Positions 41,497-49,018 of a stretch of 64,000 nucleotides of DNA are shown one piece after another. The notes under the pieces were generated by a model. The model worked only from the letters and a program-made list of their open reading frames with translations, did no database searches and was not told the origin of the DNA. Every line of letters begins with the position of its first letter. The first letter of the stretch is position 1. The DNA lies in the NCBI GenBank assembly GCA_036569045.1, contig DATCRI010000028.1:1-64000 (forward strand). The letters run 5' to 3'. The position numbers and the translations under genes are program-made. This DNA comes from Chthoniobacterales bacterium (GTDB lineage Bacteria; Verrucomicrobiota; Verrucomicrobiia; Chthoniobacterales; JAATET01).

Positions 41497-41629
41497 ACTC
41501 ATCGTCTAAGGACCGATCGTCCATGACGCGCCAGTCTTCGGCGCATGTCGAAGACTCCCCGCCCGCATACCGACCCGCCAAATTGTAGCCGATCGTCCAC
41601 AGACGGCGGCGCCGTTTTCACTCATCGTC
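41497..41629 (+). repeat. Two repeat pairs upstream of the cytosine methyltransferase
   Basis: ACTCATCGTC occurs at 41497-41506 and 41620-41629. CCGATCGTCCA occurs at 41513-41523 and 41589-41599. All share the core ATCGTC and are arranged A-B-B-A in the same direction. The last copy is 6 nt from the methyltransferase ATG at 41635. They may be operators for autoregulation by the methyltransferase or methylation targets. Confidence 0.6.
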
Positions 41630-41634
41630 CGTCG

Positions 41635-42516
41635 ATGACCGCTCCCGTCGCCAACAGCTACTTCTCCGGCGCGGGGTTGATGGACATCGGCCTGCGCCTC
41701 GGCGGCGTGGAAATTCAGCAGAGCTTCGAGATCGATTCCGTGTGCTGCGCCACGCAGCGACTCAACTTCTCACACGAAACGGTCGAGGGAGACATCCGCG
41801 CGAAGCTCGTCGCCGCCGAGAAGCCCTGCGACGTGATGATCGCCACCTATCCCTGCACGCGTTACTCGCCCATCGCCGACATCCACGGCACCCGCACCGG
41901 CGAAGACCTCTTTCTCCACTTCTTCCGCCACATCGCCATCCGCGAGCCCGAGGCCTACGTCATCGAGAACGTGCCCGGCATGCGGAAGTTTCCCGTCGTG
42001 ATGGAGGCGATGACCGCGCTGCCCCGCTATTTCATCAACGTCTTCTGCCCCGTCTCCACGCAAACGTGGCTCCCGCAACGCCGCGACCGCCTCATCATCC
42101 TCGGCACGCGGCGGCCCTTCACGTGGCGCCCACCCGAAGCAGGCCATCGCGTCACCCTCGCCGAAATCCTCGAAGACGAACCGGAAGTCGAAATCCCCAG
42201 CTACGTCGCAAAGCGCCTCGACGGTGCCTACCGCGACAAACCCATCATCAGCGATCCCTCGCGCGGCGACCTCGCCCCGACTTGCGTCGCGCATTACGCA
42301 AAGGACGTCTCCACGCGCCTCGTTGTCGACCGCCGCTTCCCGCGCGGCGTGCGCCCTTACAGCGTCCGCGAATACGCTCGGCTCCAAGGAGTGCCCGACA
42401 GCTTCCGCTTCACCGGCACCTCGCGCGACGCCTACCGCATGATCGGCAACGGCGTGAGCGTGCCCGTCGGCGAATGGATCGGGCGGGAGCTCGTGCGGTA
42501 TTTTCGCAGTTCGTAG
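41635..42516 (+). CDS. DNA (cytosine-5-)-methyltransferase
   Basis: About 293 aa. Motif I is YFSGAGLMDIGLRLGG, motif IV is ATYPCTRYSPIADIHG with catalytic Cys74, motif VI is VIENVPGM, motif VIII is QRRDRLII, and motifs IX-X are RPYSVREYARLQGVPDSF and YRMIGNGVSVPVGEWIG. Motif IV has PCT where most enzymes have PCQ. The target-recognition region is short (about DLAPTCVAHYAKDVS). ATG at 41635 is preferred; an upstream in-frame ATG at 41545 would cover the ATCGTC repeats. It converges on an HNH nuclease gene; together a probable type II R-M system. Confidence 0.92.
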   Translation: MTAPVANSYFSGAGLMDIGLRLGGVEIQQSFEIDSVCCATQRLNFSHETVEGDIRAKLVAAEKPCDVMIATYPCTRYSPIADIHGTRTGEDLFLHFFRHIAIREPEAYVIENVPGMRKFPVVMEAMTALPRYFINVFCPVSTQTWLPQRRDRLIILGTRRPFTWRPPEAGHRVTLAEILEDEPEVEIPSYVAKRLDGAYRDKPIISDPSRGDLAPTCVAHYAKDVSTRLVVDRRFPRGVRPYSVREYARLQGVPDSFRFTGTSRDAYRMIGNGVSVPVGEWIGRELVRYFRSS

Positions 42517-42522
42517 AGGAAG

Positions 42523-43323
42523 CTACGACTTCTTGAAGATCGTTGCGTAGTGCGTCGCGAGGAACTTTTCGTCCGGCAGGGCGGCGTCTTCGGGGAGCCG
42601 CAGCGGCTCGCCGACAAACGCGCCAAAGTTTTCCTGCACGCTTCGCTGGGCGAGTTCGCCCTTCAGACGCGGGGAAAGCAGGAGGCGCAAATCTTGGTCG
42701 AAGGCAATCAATCCGAGATCGAAGGCCGCGTCGTGCAACCTCGATAGGCAGAGGCCATTTCTCACGTTCAGCCGCTCGTTCTCGGCCACGCTCCACGGAA
42801 GGATGTGCGAGGCGACGAGCAGCTCGCGGATGGCGAGCTGCGTGACCCCGCAACGGCCACCGAAGTTGTTCAGCACGGCGTTGCGAAAATACTCCTGCCC
42901 ACGGCGTTGTTTCACCGTGACGGTGACGTCCGTAGGTCCTGCGGGCGGATTTCGCCGGACGCGGATGCCCGTCTTAGGCACGACTTCGAGAGTCGCGTTG
43001 GCCGGCGTGGCGAAGAGCTTCCGCAGCATCTCTTCGCTCGCGGGAACGGTCTCGCCCAAGTTGTCGTGAAACTCTTGCCACATCTGACGGTCGAGGTTGC
43101 TCGCGCCAGCGAGCCCGCGAATGCCGCGCATCTGCAAGGCCGGATCGAGGGATGCGAAGTTGCAGAGCTTCATCGCAACGCTGTCGGACGTGCGGCCCAA
43201 CTTTTCCGCGAGGGCGATGATAGCCGGCTGTCGCGCGTGAAACTGCCCGAACGTGAGCTTGTGGTAGAGATTCAGCGCGACAAGCAATTCGTCGCGAGTC
43301 CAACGGCGTCGGGGCGTGGCCAT
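42523..43323 (-). CDS. HNH endonuclease, probable restriction enzyme partner of the methyltransferase
   Basis: About 266 aa from ATG at 43321-43323. N-terminal helical domain (RRRWTRDELLVALNLYHKL) and then AEKLGRTSDSVAMKLCNFASL. The C-terminal HNH core reads VLNNFGGRCGVTQ, LLVASHILPW and NGLCLSRLHDAAFDLGLIAF, with the Asn and His positions of beta-beta-alpha metal nucleases. It ends 6 nt from the end of the convergent methyltransferase gene, the usual layout for R-M partners. The open frame extends to 43572 through the 42-bp repeats and is not trusted. Confidence 0.9.
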   Translation of the reverse strand: MATPRRRWTRDELLVALNLYHKLTFGQFHARQPAIIALAEKLGRTSDSVAMKLCNFASLDPALQMRGIRGLAGASNLDRQMWQEFHDNLGETVPASEEMLRKLFATPANATLEVVPKTGIRVRRNPPAGPTDVTVTVKQRRGQEYFRNAVLNNFGGRCGVTQLAIRELLVASHILPWSVAENERLNVRNGLCLSRLHDAAFDLGLIAFDQDLRLLLSPRLKGELAQRSVQENFGAFVGEPLRLPEDAALPDEKFLATHYATIFKKS

Positions 43324-43443
43324 CGGAGCGGAGATTGAAAGGCGGGGCGCTTTTTGTCGATGGGTGATTCGCATCTGGGCGCCTCGGGAGTGCGACCTTG
43401 CGGCGAAGCATTGGCAGCGGGTGGCGCGGCGGTTGCGGCGGGC

Positions 43444-43809
43444 CATTCTGACTTCTCGGAAGGGGCCGGCCGGCGGTTGACGGGGCATTCCGAGAACCCG
43501 GAACGCTCCATCTCTCGTGTGGGACGCCCTTCCGAGAACCTGGAATGCTCCATCTCTGGTGTGGGACGCCATTCCGAAAACTCGGAATGCTCCACCTCTC
43601 GTGTGAGAACCTGGAATGCTCCATCTCTGGTGTGGGACGCCATTCCGAAAACTCGGAATGCTCCGCCACTCGTGTGGGATGCCATTCCGAAAACTCGGAA
43701 TGCTCCACCTCTCGTGTGAGATGGCATTCTGAAAACTCGGAATGCCGTCTCAAGCGGGTAGGGAGGGCTTCTGAGAACCCGGAAGCCGTCCTCCGGCGGG
43801 CAAACAAAC
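43444..43809. repeat. Tandem array of 42-bp hairpin units
   Basis: Units begin at 43444, 43486, 43528, 43570, 43641, 43683, 43725 and about 43767, exactly 42 bp apart except where the unit at 43605 has lost 13 bp. The consensus is CATTCCGA-AAAC-TCGGAATG followed by CTCCACCTCTCGTGTGGGACGC (longest quoted pieces split by hyphens). Each unit carries a perfect 8-bp stem with a 4-nt loop. Outer units have more mismatches. It lies between the HNH gene and a frameshifted gene, within the 614-bp gene-free stretch 43324-43937. Because 42 is divisible by 3, many frames stay open across it. Confidence 0.9.
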
Positions 43810-43937: not shown

Positions 43938-44715
43938 ATGGGCATTCGTGAGGACTCCGGCGAGGCGGCCGCCGGCGAATTGCGAAGGTCGTATCCTCTA
44001 AAATTTGCCGCCTTTGGAGACCTCAAGCGTTACCTTTCGAACCCCTTCGACTCGAAGGAGATCAGCATCGACGAACTCGTGGCCTTCACGGCCGACCACC
44101 TCGGCAAGCTCACGGGGCAGAACCCGGGCGGGATGTTCAACGAGGCGATCGCGGCGACGGATGCGCTGTTCACGGCGCTGTCGGGCACGATCTCCGCGGA
44201 GGATACGGCAGGGGCGATCCGCCAGGCGCGCACGGCGGCGACGACGGCGAAGCGGGAGGCGATTTTCGAAAAGCTCAGCCAGCTGGAGGGCCTCATCCAT
44301 GCGCGATTCCCGCGCACTTCGGCGACGTTATGTGGAGCTGCTGCCGGGCGGGCTGAAGGAGTTCCGCGAGGCGACGCTGGATGCGTTGAACGGGAAGCTG
44401 GTGGCGCTGCTCGCGCGGCTGGCGCCGTATGCGGCGACGATCGGCACGGCGGATGTGGCGGGGCTGACGACGTTGCAGGGGGAATGGGCGACGCTGCGCG
44501 GCGAGCAGGTGGCGAAGAAGGGCGTGTCGACGGATGCCTCGGGGAATCGCCGGGAGGCGGCGGACGCGCTGCGCGAGCAGCTTTTCGACAATCTCCTCGC
44601 GATCGCCCGCCACGAGAAGGGCCAGCCGGAGAAGCTCGGCCTCTACATGCAGCAGAGCCTGCTGGAGGACGCGACGCAGTCCGCCGAGGAACCGGCGCCG
44701 GCGACCCCGGTGTAG
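43938..44715 (+). pseudogene. Frameshifted conserved protein of unknown function
   Basis: The N-terminal half is in one frame: LKFAAFGDLKRYLSNPFDSK, then ISIDELVAFTADHLGKLTGQ, then AREAIFEKLSQLEGLIHARF-like text up to about 44310. The C-terminal half is in the +1 frame: RYVELLPGGLKEFREATLDA, then LARLAPYAATIGTADVAGLT and KLGLYMQQSLLEDATQSAEE to the stop at 44715. Removing one base near 44305-44312 (a C run) would restore one frame of about 258 aa. Mutation, sequencing error or true decay cannot be told apart. Its last 131 bp are copied at 46508-46638. Confidence 0.75.
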
Positions 44716-44720
44716 GGGGG
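44590..44720 (+). repeat. 131-bp direct repeat, left copy
   Basis: Covers the 3' end of the frameshifted gene from AATCTCCTCGCGATCG through its stop codon. It is repeated at 46508-46638 with three mismatches and no gaps (offset exactly 1918). The two copies bracket the desulfurase-DUF6883-DUF4926 cassette. Confidence 0.95.
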
Positions 44721-44736
44721 GCGGGCAGGGCGAATC

Positions 44737-44982
44737 CTACGCCGCCGCAACCAGCCGGCGGACGCTGAGCACTTCGTTGGAAAGAAGCGGCTCCAGCCAG
44801 GATTCCGGCACGGAAGTCACGGCAATCGTGTCCCCAAGGGCGTTGAATACCTCGATGGAATAGCCGTCCTCGGTATCTCCCATCGGGTGATGATCCACGA
44901 TCTTCACCACATCGCCGGCACAGAGGCCATCCGTGGGAAGATCCCGGGCAAGCGCGGCGTCGGTATAGAGTTCGAACTTCAT
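44737..44982 (-). CDS. DUF4926-like small protein
   Basis: 81 aa: an N-terminal ELYTDAALARDLPTDGLCAGDVVKIVDHH, split here as DAALARDLPTDGL and GDVVKIVDHH, then YSIEVFNALGDTIAVTSVP. The ...L-P-x-x-GL-x-x-GD-V-x-x-V...EVE-F pattern is that of DUF4926 domains. Such proteins often sit next to DUF6883 proteins, which suggests a pair with a shared job, possibly toxin-antitoxin (inference). It starts by ATGA overlap with the DUF6883-like gene and ends the three-gene minus-strand operon. Confidence 0.75.
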   Translation of the reverse strand: MKFELYTDAALARDLPTDGLCAGDVVKIVDHHPMGDTEDGYSIEVFNALGDTIAVTSVPESWLEPLLSNEVLSVRRLVAAA

Positions 44983-45314
44983 GCGGTCGGTGCTTTGTCC
45001 GGGACCAAGGTAACAAACTTCGTCTGGCGCGACAAATGTTCCGTCATCCAGATCGTGCGAACTCGCAGCATCCGGCCAGTAGGTCCGGTGAGCGAGGTCC
45101 GGATTTGATAAAACTGCCCATGCTCGGTGCTCTCCAGCACTTCGGCATCGAGCGGCAGGATCTGCTCGCGAAGGTCTGCAATGAGCCGGTCGGCATGGTC
45201 GCTGTCGTAACCCGCCAGAGCAAGGAAACGGCTTTTGTCTCCGTTGGCACGTCGCACGAGCAGATAGTGAGTAATCTTGCGCGGGTCGATGATGGCGTCT
45301 TTCGGGAGCTTCAT
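44979..45314 (-). CDS. DUF6883-like protein
   Basis: 111 aa. KLPKDAIIDPRKITHYLL, then SRFLALAGYDSDHADRLIAD and the strand-rich RTSLTGPTGRMLRVRTIW match the DUF6883 pattern (K-x-x-YLL ... GF/GY ... L ... G). No catalytic motif is recognised. It starts inside the stop of the cysteine desulfurase gene (ATGA) and shares an operon with it and the DUF4926-like gene. Confidence 0.75.
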   Translation of the reverse strand: MKLPKDAIIDPRKITHYLLVRRANGDKSRFLALAGYDSDHADRLIADLREQILPLDAEVLESTEHGQFYQIRTSLTGPTGRMLRVRTIWMTEHLSRQTKFVTLVPDKAPTA

Positions 45315-46444
45315 CGCGCGGTTTCCAGGCTGCCGACAATGCGGCTGACAGCGCTGATCGTCTCTTGAACCTCCGCCATCGTATTCGTGACGCCGAGCGA
45401 GAAACGAATACTCTCGTGGGCGGCGGCTCCGGGCTTCATGGCGGCGATCACGTGCGAGGGATCGGGCGAATCCGCGAGGCAGGCGGAGCCGCTGCTCGCG
45501 CAGATGCCAGCTTGATCGAGCAGCAGGAGCAGGGCCTCGCTGTCGAGGCCGGGAAAGTGGAGGTTCGTCGTGTTGGCGAGACGGCGGTCGGCATGGCCAT
45601 TGCGCGTCGATCCCGGCACGGCGGCGAGGATGTCAGTTTCCAATGCATCGCGCAACGGGAGCACGGTGCGGGCGAAGGCATCGAGTTTCTTCCGCGCATG
45701 GGCGGCAGCGACGCCGAGGCCGGCGACGAAGGCGACATTCTCGGTGCCGCCGCGACGGCCGCGTTCCTGGTGTCCACCACTTACGAAAGACGTGAACGGC
45801 GCCTTGCGCCGCACGTAGAGCGCGCCAATGCCCTTCGGTGCGCCGATCTTGTGGCCGGAGAGCGCGAGGTAGTCGACGGACAGGCTTTTTACATTGAGCG
45901 GCATCTTGCCCACCGACTGCACGGCATCGCAGTGGAAGAGCACGCTGCGCTCGCGGCAAATCGCCGCAATTTCCTCGGTCGGGAAAAGGACGCCTGTCTC
46001 GTTGTTCACCGCCATCAGCGAGACGCCGACCGTGTCGGGCGTGATGGCTGCTTCCAGGTCGGTGAGCGATAACAGTCCGTCGCGATCGACAGGCAGATAC
46101 GTGATGCGGAATCCCATCTCTTCCAACCCGCGGCAAAAACTCAACACGGCCGAATGCTCGACGGCGGAGGTGATGAGGTGCCGCTTCGTCAAGTCGGCTC
46201 GCAGCATGGCGTGGAGGGCGGTGTTATCGCTCTCGGTGCCGCCGCTCGTGAAAATAATCTCCAACGGGTGCGCCCCAATGAAGTCGGCAACCTGCTCCCG
46301 GGCCGTTTCCAGAGCCTTCCTGAGCTTCGAGCCAAATCGATAGCTGCTCGAAGGATTACCCCATTCCTCGCGGAAGTAGGGCATCATGGCCTCGACCACC
46401 TCCGGGAGCACGGGCGTGGTCGCGTTGTGGTCGAGGTAGATCAT
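45311..46444 (-). CDS. Cysteine desulfurase (IscS/NifS/DndA-like)
   Basis: 377 aa, PLP-dependent enzyme that moves sulfur from cysteine to an acceptor. MIYLDHNATTPVLPEVVEAM start, SGGTESDNTALH, PLP Lys in LSGHKIGAPKGIGALYVRRK, and catalytic-loop Cys in SSGSACLADSPDPSHV. ATG at 46442-46444 is chosen. It leads an operon with DUF6883-like and DUF4926-like genes rather than with isc, suf or dndBCDE. The role could be sulfur modification of DNA or tRNA, or Fe-S supply; undecided. The cassette is flanked by 131-bp direct repeats. Confidence 0.93.
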   Translation of the reverse strand: MIYLDHNATTPVLPEVVEAMMPYFREEWGNPSSSYRFGSKLRKALETAREQVADFIGAHPLEIIFTSGGTESDNTALHAMLRADLTKRHLITSAVEHSAVLSFCRGLEEMGFRITYLPVDRDGLLSLTDLEAAITPDTVGVSLMAVNNETGVLFPTEEIAAICRERSVLFHCDAVQSVGKMPLNVKSLSVDYLALSGHKIGAPKGIGALYVRRKAPFTSFVSGGHQERGRRGGTENVAFVAGLGVAAAHARKKLDAFARTVLPLRDALETDILAAVPGSTRNGHADRRLANTTNLHFPGLDSEALLLLLDQAGICASSGSACLADSPDPSHVIAAMKPGAAAHESIRFSLGVTNTMAEVQETISAVSRIVGSLETAR

Positions 46445-46507
46445 TGAGGAATCGGAGATTCGCGGAACTTCCGAAACGGAACAAGGAAACTGCCTTACCG
46501 CCCCCAA

Positions 46508-46638
46508 AATCTCCTCGCGATCGCGCGCCACGAGAAGGGCCAGCCGGAGAAGCTCGGCCTCTACATGCAGCAAAGCCTGCTGGAGGACGCGACGCAGTCC
46601 GCCGAGGAACCGGCGCCGGCGACTCCGGTGTAGGGGGG
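46508..46638 (+). repeat. 131-bp direct repeat, right copy
   Basis: A copy of 44590-44720 differing at three bases. It contains only the last ~42 codons of the frameshifted gene and has no upstream part, so it is a remnant. Between 46445 and 46507 lies the likely promoter region of the desulfurase operon, with an imperfect TTCCGAAACGGAA palindrome. Confidence 0.95.
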
Positions 46639-46657: not shown

Positions 46658-46864
46658 CTAGTCGAGCACGAAGGGCTCGGGATTGGGCGGGCGATTTGCC
46701 GCCAGGCCAGACTCCAGCAGGAAGCGGGCGTGGGCCAGCATGAGCTCGTAGGACGGCGCGGGAGCCGGCAGCGGAGCTTCCTCTTCGCGCACGACGAGGA
46801 GGTCGAGGTCAAAGAGGTGGCTCGAAGTCGCGCTGGAGGCGTTCGCGGATGATGGGCGAGGCAT
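46658..46864 (-). CDS. Small protein adjoining the nucleotidyltransferase gene
   Basis: About 68 aa from ATG at 46862-46864. FDLDLLVVREEEAPLPAPAP precedes YELMLAHARFLLESGLAANR and PPNPEPFVLD. Its start overlaps the end of the nucleotidyltransferase gene by about 56 nt, so it would be the second gene of that pair. Possibly an antitoxin-type partner. The family is unrecognised and the start is uncertain. Confidence 0.55.
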   Translation of the reverse strand: MPRPSSANASSATSSHLFDLDLLVVREEEAPLPAPAPSYELMLAHARFLLESGLAANRPPNPEPFVLD

Positions 46865-47369
46865 ACCGATTCAGCATCTGTTCGAATTCCGGGCTGGAGA
46901 TGTCAATGTGTTTCAGGCGGATGAGCTGGGTGATGTCGAGGTAGTCGACGCCCGCCTCGACCCGGTGCGGGGATTGCAGGGCGTGGAGCTTGAGGGCGAT
47001 GAGATGCAGCGCACCGATCACGCGCACGCGACGATGGCCGATCTCGAGCCATTCGCTGCTGGCAATGAGCTTCGTGAGGGTGGCGTCGTCCACGAGCATG
47101 AGGTCGACTCGCAGTCCGGCCGGCCCACGCGGTTCGAATTGCGCGAAGGCCCGGATCGGGCGCTCCGGCGCAACGAGCCGGTAGCCGGCGCTTTCCAGCA
47201 CTTCACTCCAGGCCCGCAGGTCGCGGCTTGCGAGAAGGAAGTCGAAATCGGTCGTTGTGCGGATGAAGCCGTGCGCGTTCACGGCGTGGCCGCCGATGAC
47301 GAGGAAATCGAGCCCGGCCGCGGTAGCGGCATCCACGCAGGTCTGGAAGATGTCGCGCGGGTCTTCCAT
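46809..47369 (-). CDS. Nucleotidyltransferase-fold protein (AbiEii/MNT-like)
   Basis: About 186 aa. The nucleotidyltransferase core has LDFLVIGGHAVNAHGFIRTT then TDFDFLLAS (the G-G and D-x-D metal Asp residues) and LRVDLMLVDDATLT. Later LHLIALKLHALQSPHRVEAG and DYLDITQLIRLKHID match the AbiEii/AbiGii-type toxin family C-terminal helices. Such proteins are toxins of type IV toxin-antitoxin modules or abortive infection systems. The small gene at 46658 may be its partner. It lies directly after phosphoglucomutase on the same strand, 8 nt away. Confidence 0.82.
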   Translation of the reverse strand: MEDPRDIFQTCVDAATAAGLDFLVIGGHAVNAHGFIRTTTDFDFLLASRDLRAWSEVLESAGYRLVAPERPIRAFAQFEPRGPAGLRVDLMLVDDATLTKLIASSEWLEIGHRRVRVIGALHLIALKLHALQSPHRVEAGVDYLDITQLIRLKHIDISSPEFEQMLNRYASPIIRERLQRDFEPPL

Positions 47370-47377
47370 CGGCGGGG

Positions 47378-49018
<1,641 letters not shown>

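Follow-up and report, generated by a model that had tools for sequence, protein, structure and literature searches.

The 3′ end of a protein-coding gene, here termed gene X, occurs twice in direct orientation around a three-gene cassette in a Chthoniobacterales genome, and gene X itself is strongly associated with an upstream tandem repeat array, an association that is apparently undescribed. With somewhat less than even confidence, we favor the reading that the cassette operon entered by homologous recombination at the gene X 3′ end. The features discussed below lie in a window of 64,000 nucleotides, positions 1 to 64,000 of contig DATCRI010000028.1.

39674..40492, minus strand: HAD-type hydrolase, conserved left border of a variable slot, 80–82% in congeners
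41545..43338: C5 cytosine methylase (plus strand) and HNH endonuclease (minus strand), a type II restriction-modification-like pair in the variable slot
43450..43800, plus strand: array of 42-bp tandem units, one shortened to 29 bp, preceding gene X; palindromic core CATTCCGAAAACTCGGAATG
43938..44715, plus strand: gene X, of a ~230-aa family with no Pfam or NCBIfam match, frame broken near 44310–44330
44590..44720, plus strand: left 131-bp copy, the gene X 3′ end with its stop codon
44737..44982, minus strand: DUF4926 gene, 81 aa (DUF4926 match, E 2e-10)
44979..45314, minus strand: DUF6883 gene, 111 aa (DUF6883 match, E 6e-19)
45311..46444, minus strand: cysteine desulfurase, NifS/IscS/DndA-like (Aminotran_5, E 1e-83; under the NCBIfam equivalog cut-offs)
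46508..46638, plus strand: right 131-bp copy, an orphaned gene X 3′ end (family positions 192–233)
46658–46864, minus strand: small partner ORF of the AbiEii-like gene, within 46658..47372, with an end remnant beside pgm in congener G003
46809–47372, minus strand: AbiEii-like nucleotidyltransferase, below the Pfam cut-off
47378..49018, minus strand: phosphoglucomutase (pgm), conserved right border of the slot, 79–85% in congeners

A repeated gene end brackets a foreign cassette

The two 131-bp copies, 1918 bp apart from start to start, match without gaps at 128 of 131 positions, far above chance, and a search of the whole genome recovers the repeat only as these two (E 2e-63 and 2e-59). The preliminary description had called the left copy the 3′ end of a frameshifted gene, the right copy an orphan and the DNA between them a single minus-strand operon, and all of this is borne out, as is the repeat itself. 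The left copy covers gene X codons 192–233 in family numbering (the last 41 codons), the stop codon and a few Gs, downstream of a frame break that is either real or a sequencing error, and the right copy stands without any 5′ part of gene X. Exactly three minus-strand ORFs lie in 44722–46507, overlapping by 4 bp each. For the desulfurase, the likeliest start codon is the ATG at 46444 (MIYLDHNATT), 63 bp from the right copy.

The cassette is convergent with gene X and carries 1.8 kb of cargo. Its genes are compositionally foreign, with GC3 of 0.64–0.73 as against 0.93 in pgm and the C-terminal half of gene X. None of the three ORFs is a mobility gene; tyrosine recombinase (PF00589) matches lie on other contigs of the genome, none on C28. 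DUF6883 adjoins DUF4926 in 25 of the 29 other loci of the class that contain DUF6883, and the desulfurase is linked to DUF6883 in none of the 29, so that the cargo amounts to a recurrent two-gene module plus a desulfurase. As an observation in its own right, the DUF6883 and DUF4926 genes (44737–45314, together with the 29 class loci) form a candidate two-gene, toxin-antitoxin-like module.

The three mismatches between the copies (44607, 44655 and 44706) are all synonymous third-codon positions. A random change would be synonymous with probability 0.24 and three of three with a probability of ~0.014, a small sample of only three substitutions. Since every difference is synonymous, both copies were probably coding while they diverged, which points to a second copy that was itself coding and not a drifting local copy. 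This bears on the idea that repair or a template switch placed the 131-bp end 1.9 kb downstream, beyond a cassette already there and causally unlinked to it. Such copying would take one step and no enzyme, and it would suit cassette genes that may predate the bracket (see below). However, an orphan made this way should drift at any codon position, and chance copying would not be expected to enclose a single convergent transcription unit both here and in G003 (below); we consider local copying unlikely.

The lack of any second cassette trace to the right of the orphan copy speaks against tandem duplication of the gene end together with the cassette, and that reading was rejected. Draft pieces of two strains might also have been joined at a common gene end, given that the genome is a draft of 91 contigs and that gene X is frameshifted. 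Against such an artefact, the copies differ at three sites, their longest shared identical run of 50 bp is short enough to make a long k-mer misjoin unlikely, and an older version of the layout is found in another assembly (G003, below). We regard an assembly artefact as highly improbable.

The cassette lies in a variable slot

The HAD-type hydrolase and pgm enclose a variable slot, in which each congener has different cargo. In the window it also holds the methylase and neighboring HNH endonuclease, a probable type II restriction-modification pair. The preliminary description had proposed looking for the same locus without the cassette in relatives. Congener G003 provides one, retaining ~180 bp of the AbiEii-like partner region, but it lacks gene X as well, and we found no relative with gene X but without the cassette at the slot. 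In congener G001, the sequence beyond pgm is unrelated.

The slot of congener G002 contains PIN, HerA, NurA and N4/N6 methylase genes, two DUF4926 genes and an AbrB-like/PIN pair assigned by eye, and has no gene X. Beside one DUF4926 gene stands a 34-bp stub of a desulfurase N terminus, with order and strand as in the window, and this DUF4926 gene, a candidate ortholog of the one in the window, is as near to that gene as to a second G002 copy (81% and 82%). Because order and strand are shared, cassette genes may have occupied the slot before the bracket arose. Two further observations concern G002. Its HerA, NurA, DNA methylase, PIN and AbrB-like genes (L043 2076–8255) constitute a candidate defense island, and an AbiEii-like gene (L046 4680–5240) lies between Cas3-like helicase and Cas4-like genes, as read by eye.

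Gene X ends at other loci

A second bracket is found in G003, behind nrdA. There, a decayed gene X, in which family positions 105–135 are joined to 193–233, is followed by a convergent 481-aa gene with no Pfam match and then by a direct second end copy (83% over 81 bp, E 1e-19, variable tail included). The proposal in the preliminary description that other cassettes might be inserted at the same gene end thus finds an example with the same layout and different cargo. Other congeners possess nrdA with none of these elements behind it. Both bracketed cases (n = 2) fall within one genus. In contig C18 of genome G231, a gene X stop codon is immediately followed by a 33-bp piece of a different gene X 3′ end, identical to the end of a second copy in that genome. 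Among the other loci subjected to self-comparison, none revealed a second gene X end.

A separate, ~60-bp direct repeat of different sequence (L095 7590–7650 and 8870–8930) follows shortly after a gene X end of G231 and encloses a gene pair that appears toxin-antitoxin-like by eye.

Degraded copies of gene X are strongly one-sided: eight keep the 3′ end and none keeps only the 5′ end. Detection bias is ruled out as the cause, N-terminal pieces being equally detectable. The retained stretch begins at family positions 189–193 in four degraded copies, and the array is kept together with the 3′ end in three (twice in G074, once in G231:C39). Orphan ends can therefore arise by deletion as well. Recent whole-gene duplicates also occur, as in a G266 pair with 97% protein identity; the other same-genome pairs compared show 25–71% protein likeness.

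Origin of the bracket

Under the favored reading of a crossover at the gene X end, donor DNA would have carried the operon together with the gene X 3′ end of a slightly different allele. A single crossover within that end would give gene X one complete end and leave the displaced end beyond the operon, adding cargo while gene X stays uncut. General homologous recombination would suffice, with no need for a dedicated enzyme, and the G003 gene X copy apparently underwent a like event earlier. We count in favor of this reading that the direct repeat brackets exactly one transcription unit, along with the foreign composition of the cassette, the synonymous differences, the G003 slot that lacks both cassette and gene X, the second bracket behind nrdA in G003, the lack of a second cassette trace and the 33-bp end in G231:C18. 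Against it stand the restriction of the two cases to one genus, the cassette genes without gene X in G002, the 3′ ends kept with their arrays after apparent internal deletion in G074 and G231:C39, for which no insertion is needed, and the recent whole-gene duplicates in G266. Also against it, neither a donor molecule nor a recombinase was found, no relative carries gene X minus the cassette at this site, and three substitutions are few.

Several of these same observations would also fit a history in which two gene X copies, recently duplicated or kept alike by gene conversion, once flanked the operon, and deletion then removed the array and 5′ portion of the right-hand copy, leaving its 3′ end. 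The C-terminal-only remnants, four of them starting at positions 189–193, together with the G266 duplicates, lend this truncation of a pair real weight; the synonymous differences suit two coding copies, and the presence of cassette genes without gene X in G002 agrees with it. Nevertheless, the low likeness of the other same-genome pairs makes a recent duplication an extra step, and the G003 site would require the same two-step history again. Moreover, neither an array nor a gene X 5′ remnant was found between the desulfurase and the right copy. The stretch TTCCGAAACGGAA to the left of the right copy was considered as an array remnant and ruled out, since 110 of 493 random segments score equally high. 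We judge the truncated pair to be nearly as probable as the crossover, likewise at less than even odds.

The preliminary description had read the bracket as a recent insertion or a site-specific cassette. Foreign composition, the G003 slot without the cassette, the second layout and the purely synonymous differences speak for this; cassette genes without gene X in G002, the lack of a recombinase in the cassette or a tyrosine integrase on the contig, and the degraded gene X copies elsewhere that retain just a 3′ end speak against it. The reading stands, then, only in part. If exchange at the gene X end does make the bracket, cargo would be gained without a dedicated recombinase by a route that can be read from its scars.

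Gene X and its upstream array

Gene X defines a verrucomicrobial protein family of ~230 aa. Homologs were detected in 14 of the 384 genomes sampled from the class and in 11 of the 213 from the order, and in a scan of genome contigs the sole named locus is that of Verrucomicrobia bacterium SZAS-18. Searches yielded no meaningful Pfam or NCBIfam match and no PADLOC match for gene X, no occurrence in plasmid and phage records, and no Rfam match for gene X and its array. An AlphaFold model of gene X, made with two sequences, is all-helical at low confidence (mean pLDDT 42).

A tandem array with a 40–42-bp period precedes gene X, within 645 bp, at 25 of 32 loci, which were picked by gene X match and not by array presence and, as several come from the same genomes, are not fully independent; one further locus has the array downstream. 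Among control ORFs in the same stretches, 0 of 230 have an array. Examples upstream of gene X include L053 8249–8456, L056 8470–8686, L057 7810–8120, L097 7827–8177, L105 5733–5995 and L107 469–765. Two arrays of 42-bp units in similar style are also present in the window's own genome with no neighboring gene X (L059 3533–3704 and L060 4385–4572, on C52 and C21).

Unit sequences are mostly unrelated from locus to locus, with an average likeness of 0.447 as against 0.427 after shuffling; two pairs from within a genome do show relatedness (0.73 and 0.88). Read as circles, the units are self-complementary (mean z 2.7, Fisher 8e-17) with dyads ~21 bp apart, and they fold more stably than shuffled units (mean z −1.7). 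A constant spacing of 41–42 bp, roughly four turns of the helix, together with dyads in every unit would be consistent with an array of protein-bound DNA or of hairpin RNA, paired in either case with the gene X product. The strength of the association raises the question of whether that product binds its own array only, and whether it does so as DNA or as RNA. The open-access literature searched contains no description of 42-bp arrays in Verrucomicrobia. A broader proposal, which we hold to be rather doubtful, is that gene X and its dyad array might form an undescribed two-part module, locus-specific repeats with a matching protein, that favors exchange at its 3′ end, cargo being added behind it and displaced ends left as scars.

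Comparison with known systems

In type III toxin-antitoxin systems (ToxIN, CptIN, TenpIN), a single small protein gene is directly preceded by an array of short tandem repeats. The gene X array resembles theirs in position and in unit length, and by this analogy gene X would be a candidate toxin. The gene X protein, however, gives no match to known toxin models, with Pfam, NCBIfam and PADLOC showing no ToxN-fold endoribonuclease; its low-confidence predicted structure is all-helical, and the array units vary in sequence by locus. A further hallmark of type III systems is a Rho-independent terminator between array and gene (PMC5086642). Such a terminator was found in 0 of 21 gene X loci, where 0.7 would be expected by chance, and assignment to this class was rejected on that result.

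Palindromic REP/BIME repeats are known in Verrucomicrobia, from Opitutus terrae (PMC3733652). Together with their RAYT transposases, these provide a second point of comparison, since their units are likewise intergenic, palindromic and sometimes tandem. Gene X arrays differ in their fixed 41–42-bp period and locus-specific sequence, and their partner is gene X instead of an HUH transposase.

The bracket itself resembles composite transposons and IS-flanked cassettes in having two direct copies of one sequence around cargo. Here, in contrast, no transposase is found among the bracketed or bracketing genes, the right copy is merely a gene end, and no short target duplications are seen. In comparison with integron gene cassettes, which have attC recombination sites, the repeat here consists of 131 bp of protein-coding gene end, and no tyrosine recombinase match that could represent an integron integrase occurs on the contig.

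A further likeness is to tyrosine-recombinase islands at gene 3′ ends, of the tRNA and guaA type, which share the end-restoring direct repeat and the orphan end on the far side. As in those elements, the repeat reconstitutes the gene end, covering the last 41 codons, the stop codon and the few Gs. In contrast to them, there is no integrase among the three ORFs inside the bracket and no recombinase elsewhere on the contig, the host gene encodes an uncharacterized protein, and the 1.8-kb cargo has no mobility genes. Insertions that restore a gene end are already known, and one made without a recombinase, next to a gene linked to an array, would be a variation on them; compared with the bracket, the gene X/array module holds the greater novelty.
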